A stretch of DNA of 64,000 nucleotides from Hydractinia symbiolongicarpus (taxonomy: Eukaryota > Cnidaria > Hydrozoa > Anthoathecata > Hydractiniidae). Under the pieces are notes generated by a model, which worked only from the letters and a program-made list of their open reading frames with translations, did no database searches and had not been told where the DNA came from. The translations under genes were made by a program, and so were the position numbers. This document shows, one piece after another, positions 844 through 57,834 of the stretch (the stretch's first letter is position 1; every line of letters begins with the position of its first letter). The stretch is from the NCBI RefSeq assembly GCF_029227915.1, contig NC_079889.1, positions 9,052,001-9,116,000 of the forward strand, given 5' to 3'.

Positions 844-914
844 GACGGTGTAGTGAATAAGGAGATACTAGACAACTGATTAATAACGCCAAAAGTGAGT
901 TAGAAAATTAAAAA

Positions 915-7140: not shown

Positions 7141-7348
7141 ACAAACGGTTAGACGTGTTTACAGCTAGACGAAATCAAGTCAAGATTTCTTTTAACTTGT
7201 TTTTCAATTTAAGGTAAGAATATTATTTCTTTCAATGCTTTGCTTAGAAACAGTACTCTAAAAATAAAAGACGTCTGAAAAAATTATTATCATTCATTAA
7301 CTTGTTATTTCTAGACAACAACAACAACAACAGCAAACTTCATTCAAG

Positions 7349-8825: not shown

Positions 8826-9303
8826 TCGTAGAGGAAAAACTGGTTGTCTCACTTAATTATGTGGAGGAAAAACTGGTTGTCTCACTTAATTTTGTGGAGA
8901 AAAACTCGTTGTCTCACTTAATTTTGTAGAGGAAAAACTGGTTGTTTGTAGAGGAAAAACTGGTTGTCTCACTTAATTTTGTGGAGGAAAAACTGGTTGT
9001 CTCACTTAATTTTGTGGAGGAAAAGTTGGTTGTCTCACTTAATTTTGTGGAGAAAAAACTGGTTGTCTCACTTAATTTTGTGGAGGAAAAGTTGGTTGTC
9101 TCACTTAATTTTTGTGGAGGAAAACTGGTTGTCTCACTTAATTTTGTGGAGGAAAAGTTGGTTGTCTCACTTAATTTTGTGGAGGAAAACTGGTTGTCTC
9201 GCTTAATTTTGTGGAGGAAAAACTCGTTGTTTGTAGAGGAAAAACTGGTTGTCTCACTTAATTTTGTGAAGGAAAAACTGGTTGTCTGGCTTAATTTTGT
9301 GGG
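8826..9303. repeat. 33-bp minisatellite, ~15 units
   Basis: Tandem copies of a unit containing GGAAAAACTGGTTGTCTCAC and TTAATTTTGTG, with occasional deletions. The period is a multiple of three, so frames stay open on both strands; the predicted VEEKLVVSLNF and TKLSETTSFSS repeats are therefore not evidence of proteins. Confidence 0.95.
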
Positions 9304-9309
9304 AGGTTG

Positions 9310-11250
9310 AGCTAGCGTTAATTTCACTTCACTGCGCATGTTTGCACAAAAAATCGTATTCCTTCATGTTTGAAGTGCAGTTGTTACATGGAAACGTGCA
9401 TTTCGGTAGTCTAAAAAGACTAGAACGTTATAATACCCTGTCTACTTGGCCCATCACACAATAAATGTTGTAAAAAGAAACAGGTTTTTGTTTCTCCGCT
9501 GTATTTCTCCACTCTGCTACGGATAACCTACTCGATGTTCTTTCAATTTCTTTTATGACAGGTAAGAATAATACCTGAATTCCAATCAAATGTGTATAGT
9601 TAGTCCATAGAAAATCTACGGGAATTCACCGGTCGCAACAAAGTTAATAAAAATAAATCGTATTTGTTATTTGCAGCTTAAAGATTTCTTGCGTGGTTTT
9701 ACCGACCCCCTTCGACCAACAAAGAAGCAACCTGTACTATCTTTGTTTAAGGTTTGTGCTAATTTTACATGGCCTGAGTTTCCCATAGTGCATTGCGAAT
9801 TTGTAATTTTTAAAGTAGGGCATCGGTAAAAAGGTCTATTTATTTTGATTTTTTGCCACGGTGACATGATACTCGAAAAATTAAAAATTCAGACGATGGC
9901 GCTGGCCGAAAGGGTTTCGTAGATTCTTATCTCCCAAAAGTCGCCTTTCTTGCAAGTTACGCAAGTGGACCAAAATGGCCTTTTAATAACAGAAAAACAC
10001 GTTTAAAATATCTTTTTTTGTATTTTGCATGTTGTTAGAGGTTGGAAGAGATTTGAAAAAGGATGGAACAAAAAAAGTTGAGAACTCTGGTATAGGCACA
10101 GTTAAAGTAGTTGATAAGATGCTAAAAAACGGTTGTTATGAGTACTGCTACGGCCTTACCGTACAAAAGTACCCTATCTGAAACCGATATAATTAAAGAT
10201 GCTCTTCTCCGTCGCATGTAAAAAATAATTTTTCTATTATCAGTGATGTTTCCCTCTTTAATTCCGTAGTTAAGCGTATTTGAATTTAGTATTTTGAATT
10301 TGGTGCCTAATTTTTTTCTTATGAAAACCAACAATATGCCATTCCAGCAAAAAATTTTAAACTCATCAACTCATCAACCCAGTTAAGTTGTGCATTAGAT
10401 AAGAGTTCTGTTTTCTCCTATAATAACAACAGCAATAACAACATACTTGTCCAATTAACTTTTATAAGTGGAAAAAGAATGTTGTATCTGTGGAGTAACC
10501 AATCAAACAGGAGTTTCGTGAGACGCAGAGGCCTTGTTTCTAAAACCCGTTCTGCTCAAGTAGTGATATTCACCCACAATAGAATGAAATCTACCGAGCC
10601 AAGGGTTATCAGTCGGTGTTATTATAGCCAACTAGGTTACCCGTAATAAATCTGTTTTCGATTTATTTTGTCCGCCATTCTAAACTGATTATGTTATACC
10701 AGATTTTGTGGTATGTAGCCAAGTTAATGAGGCCAGGAGAAGAACGTATTTCTTCATAACTAAAGAAAACTAAATCGCGTGAATATAAGGGAAATTGTTA
10801 TTGATAGATAAATAGCACCTCCAACAATCAGATAATAATTAGTTAATAGAGCGACTGCGCCCTGTTTAAGGAGTCAATGTTAAAGTTGTGAACAAAAAAT
10901 ACCAAACGTTGGGCTGCACTAGAATATTGAATACACACGCCAGTCCAGTATAAATTTGAAATAAACATTAACCTGTGTAGACAACAGAGATAAGACGCGT
11001 GGGAACAAAACTAGTCAATTGAATGCACTCATAGAGATAAGCACTCGACTATGAAATGTTAAAGAGTAAGGTAAAGGCACCCCGAAACACTTCTCACTGG
11101 CCTACACGACTGAACTAAGCTGGAGGAACCTATGAGGATAAAAAAAGAAGTATTCGCTCAATTGTAAACTTATGAGTAACCATATTTTCGTATTAAATGC
11201 AAGAAATGAGCAAAAAGTCCAATTGAAAAAAACAGTGGGAAGTTTAGTAT
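9310..11250. other. Intergenic, nothing recognised
   Basis: AT-rich sequence with short frames only (for example 66 codons at 9667-9867, minus). No domain, RNA gene or tandem array was seen. Confidence 0.45.
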
Positions 11251-25186: not shown

Positions 25187-25317
25187 TTTAGGTTTGTTGA
25201 AGAAAAAAATGTAGTGTCCAGTAGCTGGAGTAGGGTGAGAGGGGTGTTTTTGTGTGAATGAATTGCTCACTAGCATATCTTTCATTTGAATTTTAAACTT
25301 AACGTAAATAATGCCAA

Positions 25318-25701
25318 CAAAAGGCATCAACGATTGATTGATTTACGACAAATTCTTAATTTTAACAAAAGGCATCAACGATTGATTGATTTACGACAAA
25401 TTCTTAATTTTAACAAAAGGCATCAACGATTGATTGATTTACGACAAATTCTTAATTTTAACAAAAGGCATCAACGATTGATTGATTTACGACAAATTTT
25501 TAATTTTAACAAAAGGCATCAACAATTGATTGATTTACGACAAATTCTTAATTTTAACAAAAGGCATCAACGATTGATTGATTTACGACAAATTCTTAAT
25601 TTTAACAAAAGGCATCAACGATTGATTGATTTACGACAAATTCTTAATTTTAACAAAAGGCATCAACGATTGATTGATTTACGACAAATTCTTAATTTTA
25701 T
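25318..25701. repeat. 48-bp minisatellite, 8 units
   Basis: Eight almost identical 48-bp units contain AAAGGCATCAACGATTGATT and TTACGACAAATTCTTAATTT. The period is a multiple of three, so a 16-residue repeat frame stays open, but no start context, splice site or signal supports a gene. Confidence 0.95.
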
Positions 25702-26544
25702 GATAAAAACATAAGCGGTTTCATCCTTAATCTCTTTTTCACTTGTAAAAAATCATTTCGTACAGATTAAATTAAATTAAATTTTTAAAAAAAGCTCCTA
25801 CGATGTGCTATAAATTCAAGCATTATATCGCTAATGATTATATGTGAAATAATTAAATTTATTTATGATTAATGTTTGTTTACCTTAACTTTTCCAGTTT
25901 TATTGTTTTAACGTCTCAACTTTAACAATTAACTCATTTAACATTACCATCATATTTGGGGCACATGTTACTATCATTGTTATTTTTATGTGTTCTTGCT
26001 CTTCCACTTTATCGTGGTGTAACACCTTCTAAGTTTGAGACATCCGCGATGCTTTTCTTGTGAGATTCCTCTCTCCAATCTTAGCATTGAGTTTCAATGG
26101 CCGGTGTCGCGGAAATTAAGTACTCCCCTAAATAAATAAGTACTTCCGGGAGTATAAATTTCCTAGGAAATAAGCACGCTTAAGACATGAAATAGAAATT
26201 GAGGGAATTAATTTTCGCTTATTTGCGGGTTTTCTTTGCCAAGATTTGAACCAGCGAAGTATATTATTTCGAAAAGTTCTTGAAAATTCTTCACAAACCC
26301 CTAGGAAAATAAAAGAAACTCGTCCCCAATAGGTCAAAACCAGGAAAATTAGCTCACGCAAAATGCAATTTTTCTGATTTTATTTTTTGACCGCGAAAAT
26401 GGATTCCCCCTCTTAAGTCAGATTTTGTCAGACTTTTAGACCCCCCCTCCCCTATGAAGGCTGCCATCATATGTGAAAGTACCAGGGTAAACTGAGCCTT
26501 GAAGTATAGTTTTGACAATAATTATGAATTGTTATGAAAGCTAT

Positions 26545-27572: not shown

Positions 27573-30057
27573 TCAAATTTCGGACACCTTAGGGAAGGGT
27601 CTCAGTTTTTGTTCTTCCAGACATGATATCAAATGTGCTCGCATTCTATCAACAACAAATACAGCGTCAGAGGGTGACTTTCCGTCCAGAAGTTCAGCTG
27701 CAAACGCTATCGCGAAAAGGCCACAATTATAGGCATCAGGTTGCTTTTGTACTTCAACGAAAGAAATAATCTCTTTTCCAGTGAAGTAATTTTTGTATAA
27801 GGATTTGATTGATTTTTTCGAGGAGCGCGTTAGAAATTGATTCAAGCTGTCGCAAACTTGAACGCGACCATTAGAGCAAAAACTGAGGATCCAGTGATTG
27901 CGACCATCATGAAGTAGTTGGATGTGCTCTTGGTTAACGGCTTCATATGGCTCAACATCTTTCTTTTGGGAATTCAGGACTGTCTGGAACGTCAGAGGGG
28001 TTCCGATTTCTTGACAAATCAGCTTTTGAGCCGCATCCATTAGGTTGTCGTTCAACCAACTATCTTTAGAGATCAAGATATCCTTATCTTTTTGTTTCAA
28101 GATATAGAGACGGTTACTTAGCCACTCGTTTGATTCGGTTTCGGGTAACTGGCTTGTTTTGGGAAACGATTATCTCCAAAAGACACGATCAATTAGAAAC
28201 CAGCTGTGCTTTTGCTTCTCAAGAATCAACCAAGCCGATTTCCAATTTTTGTGTGAGATTGCTTTACAGACATCATCGATCGTGCCACTTCCTGAACCAA
28301 AATGTCGAGAAAGTTTGATTACACTCACTTTCACTTTGTTTCCATAGAATGGTAGCTTTTCCAGAAAATCACTGTAGAAATTCAGGTAGACGGATGGCAA
28401 GAGGCTACTTCTTCTTGGTTGGATGATTGTTCGAAATCTGGAACAAGTATTTGCAATGGATTTGAAAGCACCAAAATCATGTTTAATTGAATATTCTAAA
28501 ATCAAGACGACGATATCAGTGGGAAGAAGATCAAAATAATTTTTCTGTTTTTTACGTGAACTGAGATTGGTGTGGGTTGTTTCAGCTTCTGGTTCACCTC
28601 CGAACGATTTACCTTCGTCTCCAGACTCTTGCGGTTTACCTTCGTCTCCAAACTCTTGCGGTCCACCTTCGTGCGGTTCACCCTCGTCTCCAGACTCTTG
28701 CGGTTCACCTTCGTCTCCAGACTCTTGCGGTTGACCTTCGTCTCCAGACTCTTGCGGTTTACTGGTATCTTTAAACTCTTGCGGTTCACTTGCATAAAAA
28801 GGTTTTACGAGGGAAACATTATACTTTTTTTTCAATGTAACCCCTTTTGCATTACTGAGTTCACATAAGCCTCTTTTTGATATCGATGTTAGAGTGTATG
28901 GACCAACCCATTTGAATTTGAATTTCCCACCCTTTCGATCTTGTCGTTTCAGATCTTGAAGGAGTACTTGTGAGCCAATGGGTATGGTTGATTCAGGCTG
29001 ACTGTGGCGTCTATTGTAATCTCTTTGTTGCTTCTTCTGGGCCTTTTCGATGTTTTCCCCTGCAATACAGTGTGATACTTCTCGTAGCTTCAAGCTCGAA
29101 TTTAGGATATCTTTGAATGACTCAATGTCGAAAGGATCATCACATTTGCCAAGTTCTGCAGGTTCCTTGATCAAGTCGTACTTTACGTCAATGGGTAAAG
29201 TAGGGTGTCGATTATACAGTAAAAAGAAAGGCGAAAATTTTGTCGAAAAGTGAATACTTGCGCGGTGTGCAAAAAGAATGGATTTTCTTCCAAGACTTTA
29301 ATTAACGTATCTTTAATAGTCCGATTCTGCCGTTCGCACAATCCATTGGCCTGAGGGTGGTAAGCTGAGGTCACCCATTGGTCTGTCCCTGTCAGTTTAA
29401 GCAAGGCATCAGATACTTGGTTCACAAATTGTCTCCCTTGGTCGTTAATTTGTGTCTTAAAACAGCCATGACGACAGATCATTTCGTACAAAAATCTTGC
29501 TACAGTTGGGGCAGTTTTGTCTTGAACAGGTTTGGCTTCTGACCATTTTGAAAAATAGTCAATCAATACAATCAAGTGTTTGTAGCCATTCATTTCGGGT
29601 AGATTGCATATATCCACCCCAACTTGTTGCATAACATTTGAATCGACATGGATACTTTGAAGTTCAGGTGAGATCTTCTTGACTATTTTCCCTTGTTTTT
29701 GGCATTTTTGACAAGTTCGAATATAGTTTTTAACATCATCGACCATACCATGCCAATAAAATCTCTCGGATACTTTTTGGTAGGTCGAGTCGCGTCCTCT
29801 ATGACCACTCATTGCCACTGACTCGACAGTTTCATTGATGCCCTCGTGTATGTCGTGAATGATGGCGTTCTTTCTTTGATTTTCAAAAATAACTCTTCTG
29901 GTCCCTTTAAACGTCAGATGACCATCAACAATTGAAAAGTTTTTACTCGATTTCCTAAAGTTACTTTTGTCTCCTTTTTTTTTATATGAGCAGGGTACTG
30001 CCCATTTCTAATATAATTCTCAATATCTTGCAATTTCACATGCTTATTCGTCGACAT
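27573..30057 (-). pseudogene. Ginger transposase: integrase, GPY/F, F-box-like, Ulp1-like protease; broken
   Basis: The start is taken at the ATG complementary to 30,055-30,057 (MSTNKHVKLQDIENYIRNG). In order come an H2C2 zinc finger (SGHRG, later CQKCQK), an rve core with DDE candidates in GVDICN, INDQGRQF and GLCERQN, a GPY/F motif (KWVGPYTL), an acidic ESGDEG repeat, an F-box-like stretch (YFDLLPTDIVVLILEY), and a C48/Ulp1-like domain with WLND, NHWIL, VCDSLN and NCGLFA supplying the expected His, Asp and Cys. Three lesions: frame changes near 29,950 and 29,255, and one in-frame TAA at 28,170-28,172 between the F-box-like and protease parts. The frame reopens directly after that stop. Full length would be near 828 codons. 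No intron that would remove the lesions is evident. Confidence 0.85.
28575..28785 (-). repeat. In-frame 27-33-bp repeat in the transposase (ESGDEG units)
   Basis: About seven units of a Pro-Gln-Glu-Ser-Gly-Asp-Glu-Gly type repeat make an acidic linker between the GPY/F and F-box-like segments. Other-frame repeats on both strands are shadows of it. Confidence 0.85.
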
Positions 30058-36565: not shown

Positions 36566-36843
36566 TTTATTTTTTCAGGCGACAAAGTATTTTTTTAAAT
36601 GGTAAACAGATTCAAATAAATAAATTAACATTTTTGAACACATTGTAAAACATCCATCTGTTTTGATCCTTGGCATATTGTATTGATTGGTCGTAAATAA
36701 AATTAAGGAAAAATCATCGGTTAGTATTTCTGCAATGCTTTGAATTGCGTATAAAATTATCTGTAAGGGAACACGGTAAAAATAATTTGCAGTAATTACT
36801 GTGGTGATTGTCAATTTAATCATTTGGCAAATCAATTATCAAG

Positions 36844-37740
36844 ATGAAACTTTGGATTATTTCGCTGATAACATATATTATACCGTTGACATTACATTGC
36901 ATTGGAATTGTGCTGCTTTTAACAAAAAGTTCCAATGTTAGTGGAAGTCAGACGATATTCATGATCAATCTTAGTGTATCAGAAATATCGTTATCCATTA
37001 CTGGCGCACTGGCAATTGGCTTTTACGAGCTGTATGGAGGGGGACACTTCGCTTATCAACTTTTTACAATTGGTTTTTTATCGTCAGCATTTACTTATTA
37101 TCCTATCATGTATATTTTGACGCTGGACCGTCTAGCTGAAGTTTATCTAAACCTTCGTTATCAGTTTTACTGGTCGGCCAAAAAAACAAAGGTTTCCATG
37201 ATTTTAGTTTGGTTGATAAGCGCGACTATGTTTTTCTCATTTCTCGTATATATACGAGCCGACCAAACAAATGGATGTGCCAACCTTGTAGATGTAGCCT
37301 ATGAATACGTCTATCCACTTGCAAATTTTCTTTATATCATTATAGCACTCCTTACCTATATTTACATCATCAGAAAGATACGACAGAAAAGAAAGATTCA
37401 AGCTAGTATTTCGATTTCCATTGCGAGTGGAGCAGAAAAAGTATCTGCACCAAATAGCACTAATAATTCGCGAACTTCAACACAGAGAAAAAAACCCAGA
37501 AGCTTCCACTTGTTGCTGCCGTCTTTGTTAATACTTACTTTTGTTTTCTTCATCGCTATTCCAGATCTAGTGGCATTTCTAGCATATTTAAGCATCATAA
37601 ATCACTCGTTTTCTTTGACAGTAACAATCAACGCAATGTACTCCATTGGTTTGGCATCAGACGCGTTAATTTACGTGCTATTGTCGACCTCGTGTAAAAA
37701 TTATCTTCGGAGGAAATATAGAAAGCTCTTTACTCGATGA
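36844..37740 (+). CDS. Rhodopsin-class (class A) orphan GPCR, intronless
   Basis: 298 residues with seven hydrophobic spans at about 5-27, 37-60, 70-93, 117-137, 152-176, 224-247 and 256-282. Family landmarks: NLSVSEI in TM2; LDRL (residues 94-97) in place of DRY at the end of TM3; Trp123 in TM4; Pro158 in TM5; a Pro in the TM6 segment FFIAIPDL; and SDALIYV in place of NPxxY in TM7, followed by a basic tail with a Cys that could be palmitoylated. The usual Cys at the top of TM3 is missing (GGGHFAYQLF), so the standard loop disulphide is not expected. An acceptor-like TTTTTTCAG before 36,580 suggests a noncoding upstream exon. AATAAA occurs at 37,881. Ligand unknown; probably couples to G proteins at the cell surface. 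Confidence 0.85.
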   Translation: MKLWIISLITYIIPLTLHCIGIVLLLTKSSNVSGSQTIFMINLSVSEISLSITGALAIGFYELYGGGHFAYQLFTIGFLSSAFTYYPIMYILTLDRLAEVYLNLRYQFYWSAKKTKVSMILVWLISATMFFSFLVYIRADQTNGCANLVDVAYEYVYPLANFLYIIIALLTYIYIIRKIRQKRKIQASISISIASGAEKVSAPNSTNNSRTSTQRKKPRSFHLLLPSLLILTFVFFIAIPDLVAFLAYLSIINHSFSLTVTINAMYSIGLASDALIYVLLSTSCKNYLRRKYRKLFTR

Positions 37741-43034: not shown

Positions 43035-43874
43035 TTAACCGAAATGGCGTCGACGGAAAAAGGTTCTTCGTCGACGAAAAACAGTGCGTCGGCGGTAATA
43101 TCTTCTTCGATAGACAATACGTCGACGGTAATATCTTCTTCGATAGACAATACGTCGACGGTAATATCGTCTTCTTCGACGAGCAGATCTCCTGCGTCGG
43201 CGTCCGAACCAAGCAGCTGGATCTAAAATTACAGAAGTTTGCGTTAAATTGAAATTAAATTTAAAGAGCAAATATAAAAAGTAACATGAAAAAATATTAA
43301 CACGTACCAGATTTTCCTTTTTCCACAGCATCGTTGTTTTCAACAGCGCTGTCACTTATATCAACACTATCGTCATCATTTTCAGCTGGGTCTGATTCGT
43401 CTTCTTCTATTTCGCCTTCGTCTGGACAACACATAGTGTGATAAAAATCAAATTACATTTACGCAATCAGAACCTAACAAATAACCGACAAAACATGTAC
43501 ATACCATTATTTTCTCCAGGATCAGCACCTTCTTCTTCTATCTCATCTTCTTCTTCTTCGTCCTCTTCAGCAGGGATTTTATCTTCATTTGTTGCATCAT
43601 CCTTGTTTTTGTTTTCTGAGGGGTCTTCTAAATCGAATGCATCATCGCTAGAATCTTCCTCTTGAACTGTTGTTTTTTGTTCTAGAATGGAATGGTGATA
43701 ATTACTTTGCATTATTTCTTCTTAACTAAGAGTAAGGCATGGCTAAAAAACTTTGCGTCCTGTTCTGGGTAAACCAAAGTTCACGCAGAAAGCCACAAGG
43801 TCGAACAATAATATCTAACCTGCGAAGAGAACGGCGACGAAACCAAAAAGCAGCACTAAGTGAATCAACTTCAT
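43035..43874 (-). CDS. Secreted acidic/Arg-Tyr-repeat precursor, gene 1
   Basis: Coding exons on the minus strand: 43,820-43,874 (signal peptide MKLIHLVLLFGFVAVLFAG), 43,505-43,681 and 43,305- or 43,309-43,421 (very rich in Glu/Asp), and 43,035-43,222 (11-residue repeats RRRYYRRRIVY, ending HFG-stop). The last exon lies in the arginine frame only if the exon before it ends at GTAC/GTG (43,305), giving 178 residues. The better-matching donor CTG/GTACGT, four bases earlier, leads to an acidic frame (EEDITVDVLSI) that stops at 43,016, giving 183 residues. A C-terminal Gly could donate an amide. The acidic pro-part would mask a cationic peptide, as in arminins. Role in defence or matrix binding is inferred only. 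Confidence 0.75.
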
Positions 43875-44059
43875 CTAAAAGAGGAAAAAAAGTGTTAAAA
43901 CTGACAAGTGAAAGGGTTTCCTTAATGTGATAAGAAGGCGAAGCCAATTATCCAAGCCAGTTTGATGTTAGAATTCAACAACAAAATCTCACCAACCCTG
44001 CTTTTACTAAAGAACGCTACATTTGCTTGAAATCGCCCAATGCACAAAGTGCTACATAC

Positions 44060-44137
44060 CTTGTCTACTACTCTGATGTTACCAGTGTAGTATCTGCTTT
44101 TTGACTGATAAATACAAAATATGTCACCCTTTATATA
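44060..44137 (-). promoter_or_regulatory. TATA box and noncoding first exon of gene 1
   Basis: TATATAAA complementary to 44,130-44,137, followed by a leader ending CATCAGAGTAGTAG and ACAAG/GTATGT (donor after 44,060). The same leader motif and TATA spacing occur in genes 2 and 3. Confidence 0.7.
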
Positions 44138-44164
44138 CTGCTCTATCGAAATCAAAAGTAGTTA

Positions 44165-47100
44165 CAGATGTAATCTATTTTTTAACTACAATTATTAAAA
44201 CAGGGGGTATACTTTTTATCAAATTTATTCAAGCAAAACGATAATACACCTCCTGGTTTATTTTTAGAGAAAACTATTGAAATATTTGTGCCAATGTCTT
44301 TAAGTTGAAATGATGTAGCTATTAGTTATCTGTAGGCTTAATTTTGATAAATTGCTCAACCGCAGACTATGTGATGTTTTTCATTATTGGTATTCATTGC
44401 AAAAATGGTGGTGAAACAAATCGCTTTATCAGGACTTTTTGCTTCATCTGATGTCGGGTCATTTTTATTTTAACTTCATATATCCATAGTAGGAAGTAGT
44501 ATTAAATGAAACGCCAAATGAGAGTAAATGTAAGCTTGATTTATCCTTGCAGATATTCTCTATTGCTAATAATTTACCGCAACTAGAACCTATCATGATA
44601 GATGGGTACAATCAGTATATCCCTGTTAAATAACACGATAGCAGTTTTTAAAGTACAAAGTCAAGTGAACTCTATTTAAGAAAGGGAAAACTTTAACTGT
44701 AATGAGCATTTGCCAGAAACACAATTTCAAGCAAAACAGGCAGTACAATACATAGTATCATGCTACAGTGAATTATTCGCGAATATGTCAGTTTAATTGA
44801 CCGTAAATTAACCATTACTCAAAACTTTCTATCCAATTTTGGTCCAATTTTAATGGTCAAACATACTCACATATTGACATGTTATAGTAGTTATCGATTA
44901 CAATTATTAACATGCCTATATCAGGCTCATTGGCGTCAAAAATAATTAGTAGACCTTCCTTCACTTAGTTAGATAAGAGAGAACATCTGTGTATTTAGAG
45001 ATGTTTGCCATAACATTTACTGACACATCTCGAAAGAAATATTTAAATGCAGAGTAATGAATAAAGCACTTATTCCTTGCTCTGTTATAAGGGTTCAAAA
45101 AACACCATTTACATATTTTTTCTACGTTCGGGACATTAGTGCTGGTTTTGATTTTAGGAGTAATATTTTAACAAATAGACGAACCCACTACACTACGTGC
45201 GGCAAGGAAATACATAATGAAATGACAATGCTCATATACACCTAACATAAACCTGTCAACATTTTTTTTTTACAGTGGTTACACAAATTGTTTCTTGCTG
45301 ACTTACAAACTAAAGTCACATTTATTGAGAACATTGTCCTTTCTTTTTAATAAAGCATATTTTATGGGTCACACACCCACACACACACCTCTTAAAGTAT
45401 GGATGGTCTAGTACCAAGTTGATCATCAACCGGATTTCGTTAAGATTATGAGAAACGTTAAAAAAAAATAAAGTGAAAATTCTGTATGTGTTCAGTGGTT
45501 AAGTAAATTTTTAATTGCCTCTTTTTTTGCACAATTTTCATTTTCTAAAACATCATTAAATATTGGTTGCTAAAAACTTCCTTCACAACTTTCTTTCCCG
45601 TTATTAAATGCTTAATTAAAACTGATCTAATCGTTTCGTTATCTACCAGAGATAATTAAAAAGTCATTTCAGATAATGAAGAACATTTTGTGGTATGCCT
45701 GTAGATGTCAAAATAAAAAAGTGCTTGTTCATCGCATTCCACACGAAATGGAGATAACACTGGATAACGCAGTAAAAGTAATGCCTTGTCGCGTTATTGC
45801 GGTGCGAAAATGCGAGACCAATGGCTAGATGAAGTATTAAAAAATGGTCAATGTTGTCTGTCTGCGTCATTACTCCTTATCAGCAAAAGACTGCATGAAT
45901 CAATATATAAAGCAAGCGAATTATTAGCTTGGTTTGAATTTAAGTATTTGTGCATTATTTTACGTGAAAAAAAAAAGAATGATGACTCATCAACTTAAAA
46001 CTATTTTTTAAAATATTGTTATTTCCCAAAAAAATCTGCGCAATAATTAGTAGAAATTGGGTATATTCTGCACCAATTTGTAACTCCAATTTTTGTTTTA
46101 TTATTTATAAACCAACTATATCTGCGAGTGTTTTTTTGTTTATTCATTCAATATTCATTCAACATTTTGAAGAAGACTGAAAATACTGGTTCCTTGGTGT
46201 GCAGAAGAGATGAGTTTTATTTCTTTGTTGAGTTTTATTGTATGTTTTGAACAAAATATTGTTTTATCAAATAAAAAATATGCTATGCTTTGTACTTTCA
46301 AACTACACTGTACACTGATTAAATAAATACTCACTTTCTGTACTAAGCACAGATCAGGACATTGTTAAATGTAAGGTCGTTAAAAGACTGGGGAGAATTA
46401 AGATAAGTATCGTTATGAAACTCCATGTTTTTGTTAAAACCGTACATACCTATTAACTAGACTGCATTGTCTAATTAACGCTGTATCTTACAGATTTTCA
46501 AGTTGCTACAAGAATAACCTACACAAAAGGTTGTTGACTTATCATATTTGAATATAGCCAGATACTATTTCTCCCTCCTCTTCATTCCCTCATTTTTTTG
46601 GCATATGTTCAACACGCCACAAAAATATTGACTTTTTCCAGAAATTGGATAGAAAAATCTAATTAAGAATGACCAGTTCGCAAAACAAAATTTCTACCCA
46701 GGAAGTGCCTAACTCTATTAAAGGAGAAGCGAACTGCGCACGGCTTGGCAGCTGAATAAATGCTCACGATGACAGTGTTGATTTTAAAGACCAATCATAA
46801 GTCAATAATCTTATTTTTGATGTTTATTTGTTTGTTATTATAGTAGTTATCACAAAATGCGCAAGGGTATCGCCGTCTCCTGTCTTACGAAAAAGGCAAA
46901 AATCCCTGGGAACGAGGATGTTCAGTCAAGTGGTGTTTTGCTACGAATCTTAATGCAATTATTTTTATCATTAAGGGAAATAACATTTGACAAAGCAATA
47001 ACTTTCCAATTAGTTGATTTAATGTGTTTGTTATGATCCACTATAGAAATTCTACACATTCTGTTTTTATACATCTAAAAACTTCCGCTTTCTGCAAAAA

Positions 47101-49040
47101 CATCTTCGCCTTTTTTCATTTACTTAAAATAATGTTTTAACTCAAACTTTATATAGCTTATATAACTTCGTATAGCTCTAAATATGGTGATACTGATCAC
47201 TTTTTTGACATTGTTGCAATTTTCAGGTAAAGAAAGTGTTCAATTAAAGTGGCCAACTACAACAACCAAAACTCCCGTTTTAACGCTGCATTGAGAACAA
47301 TGGTGTAAAATCAGTACACACAGTTATTAGGTTTATGTACCAAAACAAAAATCTCGACTTTGATTGACAATAAATCCGGGGTTTTATCTTGCAAAATGTA
47401 TGTGAAATATGAAGGGACAGATTTAATTGGAGTAGCAAGCAAAGTGAACAACATTCATAGTGTTATTTGTTATGTTTTAAACAATGAGCTTCAAAGCACT
47501 GCAAATTTGGAAAATATATATGTTCAGAAGTTGGTCTATATTTAATCAGTTTTTCGCGTTTATAATACACAGGCTGTCAGACTCCATTTCTCACGTAAAG
47601 AATTAACACTAAAAAAATAGGTGTTGATTGCACTAATTTCATAAGTAGTGATTTACGTGAGATAAAAAAGATGCGATTACAAACTTTAATTTGTTTTGAC
47701 CGAAGAAAATAAGTTTTCGTGCCAATTGGCTTAACTATCAACAGCTATCATTTGTTATGTATGCAACGCAGAGATTTACAATCTGATCTGTTTATTACGA
47801 ATAGTCGTTATGGTAATTTAGATTCGCCTTCAAACACTTTTCAGGTAAATTACCTGTTTTGTAGCAATGACATCACAGTTGTAAAAATATCTAAGCAAAA
47901 CAAAAAAAACTATTTTATGGATCAATCATTTCGTGGATAGCGTTAATCCAAAATAAAAATATTGTGTTAATATTTTGCAAACATAAAATGATCGTCTACT
48001 CGCAATAAAATTAACACTTTTTACGAATTGAATAATTTCTCTCCACCAAATGCTGGACAATTGAGGTTAGCAAATGTATTTTACTGAGACATACTGTTAT
48101 TAATACATTATTACTCATTAGGTATCTTGATCGTTATACTATTCAGAATTGATTGTGTCTTACCTAAGTAATTAAAATTAAAGATTTAATGACTTCCTTA
48201 TGATTTGTGACTACCTCAGCAAGAAAATAATAAAAAATATCTTCATTCATTCCAAAACAGACAAGCCTGTTGCATATTTTTATTATATTCATCAATAATT
48301 TTAGTGTAGCATAAAACAAAGCCTAAAGTCCTGGATAGTGCATTTTATCCTAAGTAGTTTTCTTTGGTATGTTTTGCATTACGAAGGTTACTAGGGTTAT
48401 GACGGTTTTTCAATTTCTACAGTTTGCGGTCTCGATATATTCTCCATGTACAACAAGGCTAGTGATCAGTAGAACAATATGTTAAATGTCGGTTAACAAC
48501 TAGAGAATGGTAAGAAATGCAAATATTCAGTTAAACAGAACCTGTCTGTCATCACATGTTTTGTTGGAGTCACAATAAAGTCTCTTCTTTACGGAGTACA
48601 AACATTCCATCTGTGAACATTGGGGCAAAAACAAATTCTAAGTGCATTAACCCGAATGGAGAAAATCTGGCAATTTTTTATTTTAAAAAAAAAACACATT
48701 GAGATACCGAAATATTGACACACTCTTTTAATGTGACACTCAGCTTTTTGGGTGCATATAGGAAAAATCCTTTTCAATACGTTGGATCAAAATAAAAAAA
48801 TTTACAAGGTGCCAAAAGCTTTAGAAATAATGAATAGCCTCTTCAGTTGCTATTGGTACTGCTATCAACGAGGGTCCCGCGAAGGTGGTCCTAGCGCATT
48901 TAAATCTCTTATTTGAGCAACGAAAGTCCTGCAAGCACAGCAATCACTCAACTAGAGAACCGCCTAAGATTCAATCCTTGTCTTATGCTGCGAGCAATAA
49001 AACTGTAGTTCTGCACACACTTGATAAGCAAACTTTGTTG
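44165..49040. other. Gene-poor stretch
   Basis: No gene supported. Short frames (45,057, 45,786, 47,360, 47,719) have no domain, signal or repeat. A short CA-rich tract lies at about 45,370-45,388. Confidence 0.45.
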
Positions 49041-50931
49041 TGACGAAAAGATCTACAAACCCGTGGATTTTTTATGGACTGCTAACTATCCTTTATACTA
49101 ATTCTCGCGTTTTTGGCGATCAAAATAGTTTTATCGCAGATTGATTTGCTTTATACTATCTTTGATGCGTTCATAAGCAAGTTTATACTTTGTAAAGGGT
49201 ACACTTGCTAAAAAAATTAAAAAAACTGCTAGACCTGGATAATTCAGGAGTTACATTTTTATGCAAAATTCATTAATCACAATGGTGTAGCTTACAAGTG
49301 GCTGGTGCGCTTTTTCTAATCACGAGACTGTGCAAAATGAAATTGTGAAGTGGCACATAGCAAAGTCCCTTGCACAAGAAAAATACTTTCGAATAACGCT
49401 TTTCCTAATTTGATCTTTTTATTGTCAAATTTATACATAAAATTAGCTGTTAACCAAACAGAGTTGAAGGGGCTAGAATGGAATTTTACATAGAATGTTC
49501 TGATACTATATTTCCACAAAAATCGAACAAGACAAGCGATGGTATGGGACAACAATCGTAAACTGCAGTGATTATCACCAAAACTACACAACTGTTCACA
49601 GACAGGGGACAAAAGGGGACCTCGATATCGAAAAGTAGCGGTAATGAATATTCGTTGACGCAAAAACTTTCATTATTAGATGATAAAGAAAACCACATCA
49701 GTTCATGTATGCTTTGCATAATAGCTTAGACTGCAAGTATGAAGTGCTTGACGTCATACCATTCCTAAGTAAATGTAAATAACATATTTATTGACCAAGC
49801 AATTAAATATATGAATTACTGCATATTTTATTGACCACATTTTTCAGTGCCAAAAGAACATTCTAATGTTCAAAACAGTAACACAACAGTTAGTTCCTTG
49901 TCACGTAACCAGTTGTTGTGTTATTTTCCTCAAAACTGTACACTTCCGTTTATTTTCCGTTTACTTTTTCATACAGAGAGTGAAAAGTTATGCGTGACAC
50001 AGACATGAAACAAGCTAGTTCTGCTTACGGAGGACTATGTTGATTCATGCGACAAAATACGCGAAGGAATATGCTGTTTTTAAAAATCGAGAAGTTTGTA
50101 TCGTCAAAAATCCAACAGGAAAGAAATGTTGCTTGCAACTCAAATCTCTATAAAAATTGCTAGCAAAAATCGCACAAAAAGTATGACCAGTTTGAAACGC
50201 AAAAACAAAAGTTTAGGCCTAAAATTCATTAATTTTAATGTGAACACTAACGCAAGTCACGCAGTAGTTCCACAGGACTAATTTTTGAATCATATACTGT
50301 ACCGTAATATGTATGGTATTTTATAGCGTGTGACGTATGGTAGCATAGAATGGCTTAGTCGGAAGACATGTGAAGCTCAGTTTCGAATAACACAGAAATT
50401 TTCAAAGATAACTAACGAAAAAATCTGCAGTTTTTTAAATAACTTTTGAACTAGTAAAAGTTAAGTGTTTATATTTTATGTTTTTTGATGTATCTGTTCG
50501 CAATTTTTTACCAATCAAACATATTCCACAATATTAGAATATAACGACTATTTTGGCGTAGTACTGAATAAAAATTTTTGAAAAAAAAGGAATGAGTTAT
50601 TCTTGTTGATGTTGTCTTGTCGTTCCAGCAGAATTACAGAGCGCTTATAGCTTAATGATTGATATGTCGTTTGCGTATTTTAATTAGTTCTCCAACATCG
50701 TTGTCAAATGCTATCAGAAGATGGATGCTATTTGATTTTAAGCGAAAAGAGGAAGAGTTTTTATTTTATTTTAAAAGCCTTCCTGCAATAAAAATAATGA
50801 CAGTTTTTAAATATAGCTTAGGAAGTTAATTGTTTTGAAATAATGGAGGCTTTAGTGATTTAGAAGCATTTTATTTTTACCAATCATAATTTATGTGGGT
50901 TATTTAATCACTTTTAGTTTCGTACGAGTTG

Positions 50932-51009
50932 TATAAAAAGGGTAAAATGGCACGCACTAAACAGTTGGAAAGCAGAACACTACCCTGATAACAGCAGAGT
51001 AGTAGCAAG
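50932..51009 (+). promoter_or_regulatory. TATA box and noncoding first exon of gene 2
   Basis: TATAAAA at 50,932-50,938. The leader, expected from about 50,962, contains AACAGCAGAGTAGTAGCAAG and ends at GTAAGC (51,010). The next exon starts at the ATG, 51,167. Confidence 0.72.
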
Positions 51010-51166
51010 GTAAGCTTGAAATCACTTAGTGTGGTGTGCTGGCAGTGTCATATACTGACTTAGTGGGATATGTGAGAAATGAGCTATTATTACACATCAA
51101 TTAATTTATTTTTTTCTCTTTTAGTTTTTTAGCAATCTTTCCTCATTTAGTTATTTTGTTTTTTAG

Positions 51167-52355
51167 ATGAAGTTGATTCATTTGGTCCTGCTTTTTGGCT
51201 TCGTTGCCATTCTATTTGCTGGTTAGTTACTAATTTAGTGTTAACATAGCTATCACGAGTATTTTCGGTCCAACTTTGACAAAATACAAATTAATCTCAT
51301 CAATCTTTTTTAACAGAAGACAAAGCAACAATCCAAGATGAAGTCGCTGACAACGACGACTTTAAATTAGACCTTCCAACAGAGAAGAAAGCTGTTGAGC
51401 AGGATCTAGAAGAAGAGAATGTACCCGCTGAGGACAACGAAGAGGAGGATGAGGATGAGGATGGGGATGAGGAAGAGCCCGCTGATGAAGATGAAGACGA
51501 GGAAAATGAGGAAGAAAAAGATGAAACTGATGTCGCAGAACCAAGTGATGGTGTGTACCCTTTTTAGGACAATTATTCACATTTTGGATGTTTCTTGTGT
51601 AACATCTACCATTATTAGGTTACAGTCATGGCAAGGATGTATTAGGCAATTCATCCTATAATAACTCAAATCAACTAGCATTCATAGATGCCTCTAGTTT
51701 AGGTATCAGCTATGTTAAAATTAGGAAAAAATAAAAACTTTAAAAGAGTTTAAAAAAGTTAAAATATACAATAAGTGAAGCTTTTCGCCCACTAAGTACA
51801 TCATCAGACTATCAACAATTGTGAAAACAAATAATTAACTAAACACACTAACACTATTGATTCTCTGTAGTGAAAGAAGATGAAGAAGAAGTACCGGCTT
51901 TAACTGAAAACGGAGTTGCTGAAGCTGAAGACACTTCCACCGCAAAATTAGGTAAATTTTTACAAACGTTTTGCAGGTTTTACATTACTACTTGTGGCAC
52001 ATTTTTAGAATCAATTTCTACCTGATAAAATATTACATTATCTAACATTTTTTATTATTATTTAGATCCATTGAGGCGATATGTCGTTCGTAGACGATAT
52101 TACCGTCGCCGTCGATCTGTTCGTAGACGATATTACCGTCGACGTCGATCTGTCCGTATACGATTTTACCGTCGCCGTCGATCTGTACGTAGACGATTTT
52201 ACCGTCGCCGTCGATCTGTACGTAGACGATATTACCGTCGCCGTCGATCTGTCCGTATACGATTTTACCGTCGCCGTCGATTTGTCCGTAGACGGTCTTA
52301 CCGCCGCCGTCGCCGAATTGTCTATCGTAGACGATATTTACGAAAATTTGGTTAA
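51167..52355 (+). CDS. Secreted acidic/Arg-Tyr-repeat precursor, gene 2
   Basis: Four coding exons: 51,167-51,221, 51,317-51,550, 51,871-51,951 and 52,066-52,355, GT-AG throughout, all three introns in phase 1, 219 residues. Exon 1 is a signal peptide (MKLIHLVLLFGFVAILFAG). Exons 2-3 encode a pro-region dominated by Glu and Asp (NEEEDEDEDGDEEE). The last exon encodes repeats of RRRYYRRRRSV with RIRFY variants, about 54 Arg in 96 residues and no acidic residue after LDP, ending RKFG-stop. Basic cleavage sites are abundant and the final Gly suggests amidation. AATAAA follows at 52,436. This acid-then-base layout is that of cationic antimicrobial precursors; a polyanion-binding matrix peptide is an alternative. 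No named family was recognised. Confidence 0.85.
51690..51830 (-). other. Hammerhead-like degenerate core in intron of gene 2
   Basis: On the minus strand, CTGATGA (51,807-51,801) is followed by 14 nt and then GAAAA. Downstream is an A/T-rich run ending in T-rich sequence, as beside the complete hammerhead at 59.0-59.1 kb. The intervening stem pairs poorly and no cleavage-side strand was found, so this is at best a relic. The same is seen at 56,150-56,181 in the second tandem copy. Confidence 0.3.
52071..52350 (+). repeat. 33-bp coding repeat of gene 2
   Basis: About eight copies of a 33-nt unit (contains TACCGTCGCCGTCGATCTGT). The codon choice leaves a second plus-strand frame (VDDITVAVDL) and one antisense frame (QIDGDGKIVYG) open; these are treated as shadows. 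Confidence 0.92.
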
Positions 52356-53335
52356 AACCGCCATTCTTAAAAGAGCATATACCAATGTAGCTAAATATCA
52401 TGAATAATGTATAACTCTTCAAGACAACTGTTTTTAATAAATTTTCCCACGTCCCCGGCAAAAAAAACATCGGCTTGTAGAGAATATATTTGTAGTAAGA
52501 TAATCAGATTCATTCTTCAGTAACGTACAATCGCCCCTTCACAATTGCTATCCATCCCGACCAACGCACCGTCTGTAGTCAAAGTCAAAAAGCAAGTAAT
52601 AATACTCCCTCCCCTGTATTTCTAACTTTTTACTTTTGCCATCAGATATTTGTTTTGCGAAAAAAGACTAAGCAATTCCGACCGTGGAAAAATTCTTTAC
52701 CTATTTTATAAGCTGGAATTCATGAAATAGACAGCTAAGAGTAATTATTTATTGGATTGCCATATTTTCCCCAAAATCACTGTTGGACAGAACAATATTT
52801 TATCTACGATCATCTCTCTGGTCTCTGGACCTAAAAGAATGTTAATAGCTACTCATTTAAATTTAATGGTTCATAATGGCTCTAAATGCTTGTTTATAGA
52901 TTTTTGTTAAAAAAAACATACATAAAGTTCGGACAACACCAAAATCCGTTTTTATCCCAGATATTTGTCTAACTTGTAGACCATTACATTGGTTTTCGCT
53001 TTATTCCAGAGATATTGTGGAAGACATTTATTCAATTCTTGATTTTTGGGACATTCTTTGAGTTTTAATATTTTAAAAAAATATTTTTACTAATAATATG
53101 GGAAACCTATCTAAGATTACTAGAATATTCTTTCTACTAATTATAAAAATCTTATATAGTTCTCAAGAAATCCTGTTTTTTGTGGAGAATAGCGGAGTGC
53201 CTCTATCTAGCTAATGCAAAGCCTTCGAAACGAAAAGATCTGCAAACCCGTGGATTTTTTATGGACTGCTAACTATCCTTTATACTAATTCTCGCGTTTT
53301 TGGCGATCAAAATAGTTTTATCGCAGATTGATTTT

Positions 53336-53528
53336 ACTTAGTTTATAATACCAGAAAATTGTAAAATTTAAATGGAATAAATTTATGCAATCGTCATGCA
53401 ATTTACGAACATTTAAAACACAAAATAGTGTTATAGGCCATAGAGAAAAATAATAATTATATCTTTATGTGTAGCCGATATATGGCGATAAATAAAGGAC
53501 TTATCATTTGGTTGGTGTAATAACTTTT
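53336..53528. repeat. 193-bp segment present only in duplication copy 2
   Basis: In copy 1, CGCAGATTGATTT runs straight into GCTTTATACTATC. In copy 2 the segment is flanked by TTGATTT on both sides, compatible with an insertion with target duplication or with a deletion in copy 1 between short repeats. Confidence 0.75.
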
Positions 53529-55317
53529 GTTGATTTGCTTTATACTATCTTTGATGCGTTCATAAGCAAGTTTATACTTTGTAAAGGGTACACTTGCTAA
53601 AAAAATTAAAAAAACTGCTAGACCTGGATAATTCAGGAGTTAAATTTTTATGCAAAATTCATTAATTCACAAACGTGTAGCTTACAAGTGGCTGGTGCGC
53701 TTTTTCTAATCACGAGACTGTGCAAAATGAAATTGTGAAGTGGCACATAGCAAAGTCCCTTGCACAAGAAAAATACTTTCGAATAACGCTTTTCCTAATT
53801 TGATCTTTTTATTGTCAAATTTATACATAAATTAGCTGTTAACCAAACAGAGTTGAAGGGGCTAGAATGGAATTTTACATAGAATGTTCTGAAACTATAT
53901 TTCCACAAAAATCGAACAAGACAAGCGATGGTATGGGACAACAATCGTAAACTGCAGTGATTATCACCAAAACTACACAACTGTTCACAGACAGGGGACA
54001 AAAGGGGACCTCGATATCGAAAAGTAGCGGTAATGAATATTCGTTGACGCAAAAACTTTCATTATTAGATGATAAAAAAACCCACAACAGTTCATGTATG
54101 CTTTGCATAATAGCTTAGACTGCAAGTATGAAGTGCTTGACGTCATACCATTCCTAAGTAAATGCAAATAACATATTTATTGACCACGTAATTAAATATA
54201 TGAGTTACTGCATATTTTATTGACCACATTTTTCACTGCCAAAAGAACATTCTAATGTTCAAAACAGTAACACAGTTAGTTCCTTGTCACGTAACCAGTT
54301 GTTGTGTTATTTTCCTCAAAACTGTACACTTCCGTTTATTTTCCGTTTACTTTTTCATACAGAGAGTGAAAAGCTATGCGTGACACAGACATGAAACAAG
54401 CTAGTTCTGCTTACGGAGGACTATGTTGATTCATGCGACAAAATACGCGAAGGAATATGCTGTTTTTAAAAATCGAGAAGTTTGTATCGTCAAAAATCCA
54501 ACAGGAAAGAAATGTTGTTTGCAACTCAAATCTCTATAAAAATTGCTAGCAAAAATCGCACAAAAAGTATGACCAGTTTGAAACGCAAAAACAAAAGTTT
54601 AGCCCTAAAATTCATTAATTTTAATGTGAACACTAACGCCAGTCAAACGCAGTAGTTCCACAGGACTAATTTTTGAATCATATACTATACCGTAATATGT
54701 ATGCTATTTTATAGCGTGTGACATATGGTAGCATAGAATGGCTTAGTCGGAAGACATGTGAAGCTCAGTTTCGAATAACACAGAAATTTTCAAAGATAAC
54801 TAACGAAAAAATCTGCAGTTTTTTAAATAACTTTTGAACTAGTAAAAGTTAAGTGTTTATATTTTATGTTTTTTGATGTATCTGTTCGCAATTTTTTACC
54901 AAACAAACATATTCCACAATATTAGAATATAACGACTATTTTGGCGTAGTACTTGAATAAAAATTTTTGAAAAAAAAGGAATGAGTTATTCTCGTTGAGG
55001 TTGTCTTGTCGTTCGAGGAGAATTACAGAGCGCTTATAGCTTAATGATTGATATGTCGTTTGCGTATTTCAATTAGTTCTCCAACATCGTTGTCAAATGC
55101 TATCAGAAGATGGATTCTATTTGATTTTAAGCGAAAAGAGGAAGAGTTTTTATTTTATTTTAAAAGCCTTCCTGCAATAAAAATAACAGCTTTTAAATAT
55201 AGCTAGGGAAGTTAATTGTTTTGAAATAATGGATGCTTTAGTGATTTAGAAGCATTTTATTTTTACCAATCATAATTTATGTGGGTTATTTAATAACTTT
55301 TAGTTTCGTACGAGTTG

Positions 55318-55395
55318 TATAAAAAGGGTAAAATGGCACGCACTAAACAGTCGGAAAGCAGAACACTACCCTGATAACAGCAGAGTAGTAGCAAG
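55318..55395 (+). promoter_or_regulatory. TATA box and noncoding first exon of gene 3
   Basis: TATAAAA at 55,318-55,324. The same leader as in gene 2 ends at the GTAAGC donor (55,396). The next exon begins at the ATG, 55,556. Confidence 0.72.
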
Positions 55396-55555
55396 GTAAG
55401 CTTGAAATCACTTAGTGTGGTGTGCTGGCCAAGTGTCATATACTAACTTATAGTGGGATATGTGAGAAATAACTATTATTACACATCAATTAATTTATAA
55501 TTTTCTCTTTTAGTTTTTTAGCAATCTTTCTTCATTTAGTTACTTTGTTTTTTAG

Positions 55556-56729
55556 ATGAAGTTGATTCATTTGGTCCTGTTTTTTGGCTTCGTTGCCATT
55601 CTATTTGCTGGTTAGTTATTAATTTAGTGTTAACATAGCTATCACGAGTATTTTCGGTCCAACTTTGACAAAATGCAAATTAATCTCATTAATTTTTTTT
55701 AACAGAAGACAAAACAACAATCCAAGATGAAGTCGCTGACAACGACGACTTTAAATTAGACCTTCCAACAGAGAAGAAAGCTGTTGAGCAGGATCTAGAA
55801 GAAGAGAATGTACCCGCTGAGGACAACGAAGAGGAGGATGAGGATGGGGATGAGGAAGAGCCCGCTGATGAAGATGAAGACGAGGAAAATGAGGAAGAAA
55901 AAGATGAAACTGATGTCGCAGAACCAAGTGATGGTGTGTACCCTTTTCAGGACAATTTTCACATTTTGGATGTTTTTTGTGTAATATCTACCATTATTAG
56001 CTTACAGTCATGGCAAGGATGAATTAGGCAATTCATCCTATAATAACTCAAATCAACTAGCGTTCATAGATGCCTCTAGTTTAGGTATCAGCTATGTTAT
56101 AATTAGAAAAAAAAAAATTAAAAAATTTTAAGTTAAAATATACAATAAGTAAAGATTTTCGTCCAATAAGTACATCATCAGACTATCAACAATTGTGGAA
56201 ACAAATAATTAACTAAATCCACTAACATTATTGATTCTCTGTAGTGAAAGAAGATGAGGAAGAAGTACCGGCTTTAACTAAAAACGGAGTTGCTGAAGCT
56301 GAAGACACTTCCACCGCAAAATTAGGTAAATTTTTACAAACGTTTTGCAGGTTTTACATTACTACTTGTGGCACATTTTTAGAATCAATTTCTACCTGAT
56401 AAAATATTACATTATCTAACATTTTTTATTATTATTTAGATCCATTGAGGCGATATGTCGTTCGTAGACGATATTACCGTCGCCGTCGATCTGTTCGTAG
56501 ACGATATTACCGTCGACGTCGATCTGTCCGTATACGATTTTACCGTCGCCGTCGATCTGTACGTAGACGATTTTACCGTCGCCGTCGATCTGTACGTAGA
56601 CGATATTACCGTCGCCGTCGATCTGTCCGTATACGATTTTACCGTCGCCGTCGATTTGTCCGTAGACGGTCTTACCGCCGCCGTCGCCGATTTGTCTATC
56701 GTAGACGATATTTACGAAAATTTGGTTAA
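55556..56729 (+). CDS. Secreted acidic/Arg-Tyr-repeat precursor, gene 3
   Basis: Exons 55,556-55,610, 55,706-55,933, 56,245-56,325 and 56,440-56,729, 217 residues. It is the tandem twin of gene 2: same signal peptide, same splice phases and the same repeat order in the last exon. Differences are few: two residues fewer in the Glu/Asp run (one GAGGAT pair lost), Glu to Lys in LTKNG, and Ile to Phe in the RFVY segment of the last exon. It keeps the RKFG-stop end, TATA box, leader exon and AATAAA (56,810). Both copies are intact, so both are probably expressed; the function is inferred as for gene 2. Confidence 0.85.
56445..56724 (+). repeat. 33-bp coding repeat of gene 3
   Basis: Same array as in gene 2 with one visible substitution. 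The unit number is unchanged, so the array has not expanded or contracted since the duplication. Confidence 0.92.
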
Positions 56730-56980
56730 AACCGCCATTCTTAAAAGAGCATATACCAATGTAGCTAAATATCATGAATAATGTATAACTCTTCAAGACA
56801 ACTGTTTTTAATAAATTTTCCCACGTCCCCGGCAAAAAAAAACATCGGCTTGTAGAGAATATATTTGTAGTAAGATAATAAGATTCATTCTTCAGTAACG
56901 TACAATCGCCCCTTCACAATTGCTATCCATCCCGTCCAACGCACCGTCTGTAGTCAAAGTCAAAAAGCAAATAATAATAC

Positions 56981-57208
56981 CTAAAGGTAGGTTTCCATAC
57001 GAGTGCATTCTACGCAGTGCGATCTTCATTTTCTTTATTAAGAGGCAAGCATTTTTTTAACATGTTTGGAAACAAGTTGTTTGTTGCAAAATACATACAA
57101 TAATAGAAAACAGGGCGCCAGGAGATTTCAATACCAACTGTACCTAATGGAGAGTAAAGAACAAGTACCACTGGTTTAGTGCATTATTCCCTGGATTCTC
57201 TGGAATAG
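56981..57208. repeat. ~228-bp insertion in duplication copy 2
   Basis: Copy 1 reads AATAATAC directly into TCCCTCCCC. Copy 2 has a segment starting CTAAAGGTAGGTTTCCATAC and ending TCTCTGGAATAG. The start resembles the AGGTGGATTTCCA end of the MITE at 3,772, but no matching inverted end was found. Confidence 0.7.
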
Positions 57209-57834
57209 TCCCTCCCCTGTATTTCTAACTTTTTACTTTTGCCATCAGATATTTGCTTTGCGAAAAAAGACTAAGCAATTCCGACCGTGGAAAAATTCTT
57301 TACCTATTTTATAAGCTGGAATTCATGAAATAGACAGCTAAGAGAAATTATTTATTGGATTGCCACATTTTCCCCAATATCACTGTTGGACAGAACAATA
57401 TTTTATCTACGATTATCTCTCTGGTCTCTGGACCTAAAAGAATGTTAATAGCTACTCATTTAAATTTAATGGTTCATGATGGCTCTAAATGCTTGTTTAT
57501 AGATTTTTGTTAAAAAAAAAAATACATAAAGTTCGGACAACACCAAAATCCGTTTTTATCCCAGATATTTGTCTAACTTGTAGACCATTACATTGGTTTT
57601 CGCTTTATTCCAGAGATATTGTGGAAGACATTTATTCAATTCTTGATTTTTGGGACATTCTTTGAGTTTTAATATTTAAAAAAAATATTTTTGCTAATAA
57701 TATGGGAAACCTATCTAAGATTACTAGAATATTCTTTCTACTAAAAATAAAAATCTTATATTGTTCTCAAGAAATCCTGTTTTTGCGGAGAGTAGGGGAG
57801 TGCCTCTACCTAGCTAATGCAAAGCCTTCGAAAG

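Follow-up and report, generated by a model that had tools for sequence, protein, structure and literature searches.

Acid-then-base genes with arginine-rich repeats in Hydractinia symbiolongicarpus and their likeness to arminin precursors

Hydra arminins are described as precursors with a signal peptide, a conserved acidic N-terminal part and a poorly conserved cationic C-terminal part (PMC4820302), and the precursor of Hydra vulgaris is listed at 88 amino acids (PMC11820242). Their paralogues are clustered in the genome, and the same report gives the genes as confined to Hydra; not even Hydractinia and Clytia are said to have homologues of Hydra antimicrobial peptides (PMC10945409). Trichoplax has putative antimicrobial precursors described as arminin-like and about 150-250 amino acids long, with a signal peptide, a highly acidic N-terminal region, a basic C-terminal region and a C-terminal Gly (PMC12013895). 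Here we analysed 64,000 nucleotides of Hydractinia symbiolongicarpus DNA (contig NC_079889.1, positions 9,052,001 to 9,116,000; hereafter the window) that hold three genes, g1, g2 and g3, each joining acidic exons to an Arg-rich last exon. We lean slightly towards reading their family as precursors of arminin-like design, from which cationic peptides of host defence (antimicrobial type) would be secreted.

Compared by description only, the family shares with arminins an acid-then-base layout, a conserved front and clustering. The conserved acidic N-terminal part has its counterpart in exons 1 and 2, which are conserved between g1 and g2, and in the acid start of a relative, g8, which is like that of g2. 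The cationic C-terminal part is variable, as the repeat units differ among g1, g2, g8 and a further relative, g4. The third arminin-type feature, a cationic alpha-helix, was not found in the g1 and g2 arrays and occurs only in looser relatives; amphipathic helices are described as the usual form of antimicrobial peptides (PMC12383608). The family may be called arminin-like in layout, and membership in the arminins is not claimed because the arrays lack this helix. Length also differs, with 88 amino acids in Hydra vulgaris (PMC11820242) and 138 to 223 in g1-g6 and g8, and the Arg-triplet arrays belong to the latter family. The Trichoplax precursors, likewise compared by description only, share size, layout and terminal Gly with the window genes. 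They differ in that the available text describes aliphatic residues and DE cleavage motifs and does not mention Arg arrays (PMC12013895).

Three acid-then-base genes in the window

The presence of three acid-then-base genes, first proposed in a sequence-only reading of this DNA, is confirmed. All nine coding introns of g1-g3 are GT-AG and all nine are phase 1, as that reading had stated of the splice borders. Exon 1 encodes a hydrophobic, signal-peptide-like product, MKLIHLVLLFGFVA(V/I)LFA, with L9F in g3. Two Glu/Asp-dominated exons follow in each gene, giving the acid half (exons 2 and 3 together) a net charge of -39 over 97 residues in g1, -45 over 105 in g2 and -41 over 103 in g3. The last exons carry +31, +54 and +54, respectively. 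The earlier reading is supported in its signal-peptide-like start and its bipartite, arminin-like plan.

The polycation begins exactly at the exon border, where exon 4 of each gene opens at the split Asp codon of a DP pair. Arg accounts for 32 of 62 residues of the last domain in g1 and for 54 of 96 in both g2 and g3, which bears out the earlier statement that it exceeds half in the latter two. The RRRYYRRRxxV-type repeats noticed before were seen in all three genes as tandem arrays with a period of 33 nucleotides. In g1 the units are RRRYYRRRIVY (twice) and RRRYYRRRTVF; in g2 and g3 they are RRRYYRRRRSV and close variants. Each protein ends in Phe-Gly (RHFG in g1, RKFG in g2 and g3). Neither Cys nor an N-glycosylation motif was present in the g1-g3 proteins.

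The features are listed below by position in the window. Conservation is given as z, the g1 versus g2 comparison scored against base-shuffled copies; UTR denotes untranslated region.

43874-43035, minus strand: g1, 177 amino acids, four coding exons
44060..44138, minus strand: g1 TATA box (from 44138 downward) to end of predicted 5'UTR exon
43820..43874, minus strand: g1 exon 1, signal-peptide-like MKLIHLVLLFGFVAVLFA, conserved against g2 (z 15.3)
43505..43681, minus strand: g1 exon 2, acidic, conserved against g2
43308..43421, minus strand: g1 exon 3, acidic, weakly conserved against g2 (z 2.0)
43035..43222, minus strand: g1 exon 4, a DPAAWFG-RRRRRSARRRR head, then RRRYYRRRIVY repeats, then HFG-stop
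49440..53180, plus strand: first tandem copy, limits set by the blocks listed
51167-52355, plus strand: g2, 219 amino acids, four coding exons
50931..51009, plus strand: g2 TATA box to end of predicted 5'UTR exon
51167..51221, plus strand: g2 exon 1, signal-peptide-like
51317..51550, plus strand: g2 exon 2, acidic
51871..51951, plus strand: g2 exon 3, acidic
52066..52355, plus strand: g2 exon 4, Arg-rich 11-residue repeats with KFG-stop end
52436..52441, plus strand: g2 AATAAA, possible polyadenylation signal by consensus match only
53829..57784, plus strand: second tandem copy, limits set by the blocks listed
55556-56729, plus strand: g3, 217 amino acids, four coding exons
55317..55395, plus strand: g3 TATA box to end of predicted 5'UTR exon
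55556..55610, plus strand: g3 exon 1, signal-peptide-like
55706..55933, plus strand: g3 exon 2, acidic
56245..56325, plus strand: g3 exon 3, acidic
56440..56729, plus strand: g3 exon 4, Arg-rich 11-residue repeats with KFG-stop end
56810..56815, plus strand: g3 AATAAA, possible polyadenylation signal by consensus match only

Genes g2 and g3 are copies within one 4.4-kb tandem duplication, whose matched blocks are 96-99% identical. Their coding sequences differ by one synonymous and four non-synonymous changes and one two-residue gap. Because both stem from a single duplication, the window holds two lineages and g1/g2 is the informative pair.

Between g1 and g2, conservation was strong in exon 1 (z 15.3), exon 2 (z 7.2), exon 4 (z 17.4) and the stretch from the TATA box to the 5'UTR donor (z 12.4; 59 of 78 aligned bases identical), and weak in exon 3 (z 2.0). 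Introns and 3' flank showed none (z -1.1 to 1.8), nor did the 100 bases that precede the TATA box (z 0.1). Within exon 1, 8 synonymous changes over 13 sites stand against 1 non-synonymous change over 41 sites (Fisher p 1e-5), and the signal exon is under constraint.

For exon 4, we compared reading frames across the best ungapped g1/g2 match. Codons with a single change were synonymous in 9 cases and non-synonymous in 2 in the Arg frame. The two remaining plus frames gave 3:9 and 1:10, and in every frame 9 further codons differ at several positions. Several non-Arg frames of exon 4 are open as well in g1 and g2, and the synonymous test within arrays was not significant (0.18 for g2, 0.11 for g1).

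Two side observations concern the duplicated region. About 230 bases at about 56980-57210 occur in the second tandem copy only, where block spacing moves from 4374 to 4603, perhaps through a small mobile insertion. A decayed copy most like g2/g3, g7, lies about 1 kb past the right end of the window (L012:1007-2024), with frame breaks in its acid part and stops in its Arg part.

Relatives elsewhere in the genome

The genome searched comprises 480,894,487 bases in 76 contigs (C numbers denote contigs, and the window is C15:9052001-9116000; L numbers denote stretches taken out for reading). The whole-genome search scores the best candidates only, such that family counts are lower bounds. Searching with g2 led to g4 on C5, which has the same four-exon phase-1 plan as g1-g3 and encodes, in order, MRFLQLLMLFGLVAVLLA, two acidic exons and DPLWFGRRRRSYYRRRSYY. 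Two more genes of this plan, g5 and g6, lie on C5, 12-14 kb upstream of g4. Comparison of g4 with g5 gave about 8.5 changes per 84 synonymous sites and 14.5 per 330 non-synonymous sites. As a side observation, g6 (L008:8776-9882) is a near-identical copy of g5; TATAAAA, present before g4 and g5, was not found in the roughly 350 bases upstream of g6, which may be without a promoter. Searching with g4 brought up g8, again of the four-exon phase-1 plan, at a distance of about 0.4 Mb from the window on the same contig, C15. It encodes MKLIHLVLVFGFVAVLFA, an acid start ETAVQDEIADND that resembles its g2 counterpart ATIQDEVADND, then DAKPLRILLGRRRYPY, RRRSVF-type units and a SIG end.

Looser relatives were found on C1 (four loci, two of them read, each an intronless open reading frame), C13 (two), C14 (one), C10 (two) and C8 (one). 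With g1-g6 and g8, the family totals at least 17 loci, 15 of which were read (g1-g6, g8, L034, L035, L037, L038 and L042-L045). The family is thus wider than the three genes proposed at first, since g4, g5, g6 and g8 share the exon plan and looser relatives occupy five more contigs. A locus on C2 would be the 18th and is excluded from the counts. There (L039, C2:23931000-23932300), an acidic stretch leads through GRRRRC into long GGRKGY-type repeats, Tyr- and Gly-rich, which recall adhesive proteins.

These assignments differ in security. Gene models cover g1-g6 and g8, and the C1, C8, C10, C13, C14 and C2 loci were judged from sequence reading. When g2 was the query, g1, g5 and g6 were not among the matches listed, and those listed for its last exon were g2, g3 and four at expectation values (E) of 0.65-2.9. 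Both g8 and the C8 locus surfaced in the g4 search at weak values only (E 0.21 and 0.12, respectively), and their assignment rests on reading their sequence. Least secure of all are the C8 and C2 loci. The L045 match is broken by three stops, which may reflect an intron, and L043 and L044 extend past the stretch read.

A tblastn scan of 20 neighbouring stretches of 10 kb each (L008-L027) at E 0.001 matched only L008 (g5, g6), L010 (g4) and L012 (g7). Two near-identical Arg/Cys/Ser-rich repeats of RRCRRFPSESRR type at L014:4516 and 5906 pass the composition filter, not tblastn. Within the window, two tblastn hits that fall outside the genes (E 0.4-0.5), candidates for further copies, were taken as chance.

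A short box, [DE]P-x(1-3)-[FW]-G-RRR, marks the acid-to-base junction in 11 of the 15 loci read and is altered in g8 (KPLRILLGRRR) and L038 (DPLFFGSRR). Behind the junction stand arrays of Arg triplets, which a basic stretch replaces in five relatives. When 21-residue heads of g1 and g4 were anchored by hand, most comparisons beat shuffled heads (0 to 2 of 500 shuffles reached the score). Weaker comparisons were g1/g8, g1/g2 and g4/g8, with 64, 37 and 6 of 500 shuffles, respectively.

The 11-residue Arg/Tyr repeat, taken earlier as the family signature, is one variant; the recurring features are the layout and the junction box. Other members have six-residue units (RRRSYY, RRRS[VI][FY], RRRSFL) or lack an array. 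Basic residues return at intervals of 5.5-6 residues, with the 11-residue unit of the window equal to 5+6 and the C5 unit to 6. Tyr pairs are present in g1-g6, and other array members swap Tyr for F, V, I or L (L034, L038, g8). For example, the 399 residues of L038 include 2 Tyr against 38 Phe. Lys is scarce: the basic domains of g1-g6 and g8 have 0 to 4 each.

Gly ends 7 of the 13 C-termini seen (g1, g2, g3, g8, L035, L042 and L045), and g4, g5, g6, L034, L037 and L038 end otherwise. The amidation suggested by the sequence-only reading is possible for g1-g3 and g8, judging from their last residue, and is not family-wide.

Database searches and other features of the window

Searches of Pfam with g1 and g2 returned nothing above the curated cut-off, with weak matches to PFF1_TM, Zip and similar entries below it. 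The last exon of g2 matched no PDB sequence up to E 1, and against viral contigs it gave 95 pattern-matching stretches, of which 0 were confirmed. No Rfam family reached its gathering score in the whole window.

Several features lie apart from g1-g3:

36820-37740, plus strand: open frame without introns that matches rhodopsin-family receptors (7tm_1, 40.1 bits against a cut-off of 30.5)
27573-30007, minus strand: retroelement-like, integrase zinc-binding and core domains beside an Ulp1-type protease frame (Peptidase_C48), all above cut-off
1-867, minus strand: integrase core domain (rva_4, E 6e-27), probably a mobile element
7301-7609, plus strand: small Thr-rich, mucin-like frame, hydrophobic at both ends, for which Pfam gave nothing above cut-off
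2370-2838, 8914-9363 and 25274-25714: long tandem arrays open in at least one frame, unrelated to g1-g3 as far as looked

Proposed function and its alternatives

As host-defence precursors, the proteins would first lose their signal peptide. Within a secretory granule, the acidic half would then neutralise the Arg-rich half and keep it packed, and the two would be separated at or near the junction, the site of the box. The freed chain, with Arg triplets alternating with hydrophobic or aromatic pairs, would bind and disturb anionic microbial surfaces. The terminal Gly of g1-g3 and g8 may yield a C-terminal amide. Across the family, the front would be conserved and the cargo varied.

Neutralisation of the polycation until release fits the near-cancelling charges and the correlation of acid with base. 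Summed over the whole precursor, net charge is -7, +10, +14, 0, -1, -1 and -2 in g1-g6 and g8, respectively, and acid and base charges correlate with r of 0.89 over five distinct genes. A link from the family to membrane-active peptides comes from box-bearing relatives without arrays, whose basic stretch was strongly amphipathic in the four of five such loci tested. Helical moments there of 0.60-0.65 compare with shuffle means of 0.19-0.24, and 0 to 5 of 2000 shuffles reach the observed value in these hand-chosen stretches. Also in favour are the exon plan and constraint of the window genes, the recurrence of that plan in g4-g6 and g8, the g4/g5 substitution counts, and a layout in agreement with the descriptions of Hydra arminins (PMC4820302, PMC10945409) and Trichoplax arminin-like precursors (PMC12013895).

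Several results weigh against a defence role. The junction box is absent from g2 and g3. The charge correlation drops to 0.53 when two C1 loci are added, whose acid parts (-14, -10) fail to balance their bases (+50, +17). The arrays are not amphipathic at 100 degrees, as 126 of 500 shuffles equal that of g2 and 302 of 500 that of g1; an amphipathic-helix reading of these two arrays was rejected, and their mode of action is less certain for it. Prohormone-type enzymes could fragment the basic domains of g1-g3 at their 23 to 36 dibasic sites, and the 399-residue Arg-rich stretch of one relative is long for a defence peptide. AlphaFold2 predicted one helix for the three last exons; with a three-sequence alignment, a predicted template modelling score of 0.38 and five models at 43-79.5 in the predicted local distance difference test, this was not relied on.

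Alternatively, though we think it unlikely, the proteins could be structural polyelectrolytes, acid-base polymers that condense in granules and harden as cuticle, glue, mucus or capsule, with Arg and Tyr as stickers or cross-linkers. The acid and base blocks are near-neutral together, and the very long array at C8, the acid-then-GGRKGY repeats of the C2 locus and the Tyr pairs of g1-g6 would all suit such a material. However, box-sharing relatives have amphipathic helices. Since Tyr is swapped for F, V, I or L in L034, L038 and g8, Tyr cross-linking is not a shared property, and it is weakened as a common function.

Cnidarian amidated neuropeptide precursors carry Gly then Arg-Arg after a short hydrophobic stretch, the usual signal for amidation and cleavage. 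The junction box, present in 11 of 15 loci, has this form, such that cleavage and amidation of D|PLWF-G|RRRR could release a short peptide of PLWF-amide type, with the Arg array as spacer. We regard a regulatory peptide of this kind as improbable. Each precursor read has a single box where neuropeptide precursors have multiple Gly-basic copies, g2 and g3 have none, g8 and L038 have altered ones, and the bulk of the last exon is a long Arg array behind the box.

Protamines are over half Arg, in blocks, and the last domains of g1-g3 resemble them in Arg content; Lys is rare in g1-g6 and g8. A secreted, protamine-like chain that mainly binds extracellular DNA, lipopolysaccharide or glycans appears very improbable to us. 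Unlike protamines, the Arg domain of g1-g3 is preceded by signal-peptide-like and acidic exons, and its hydrophobic pairs, regular at 5 to 6 positions, are unneeded for binding polyanions. That the arrays are minisatellites open by chance in the Arg frame could explain the several open exon 4 frames of g1 and g2 and the non-significant within-array tests, but is scarcely credible given that exons and 5'UTR exon are conserved between g1 and g2 where introns are not, that the signal exon is constrained, and that g4-g6 and g8 repeat the four-exon phase-1 plan.

The earlier interpretation is partly supported and enlarged, and host-defence precursors remain our favoured reading. More tentatively, and at somewhat less than an even chance, the at least 17 loci (18 with the looser one) may form a modular superfamily. 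Its secretory front of signal peptide, acidic neutraliser and release box would deliver interchangeable polycations, in some members arrays of Arg triplets that reach about 400 residues at most, in others amphipathic antimicrobial-type helices. Such a superfamily would be an answer to the arminins arisen outside Hydra, its cargo evolving by tandem-repeat expansion. If true, the family would have the same acid-neutralised design as Hydra antimicrobial peptides, with a very regular Arg-based cargo. The presence of array and helix members in one genome would make it directly testable whether the array kills, binds or builds, and the near-pure Arg/aromatic blocks may serve as natural models for cell-penetrating, condensing polymers.

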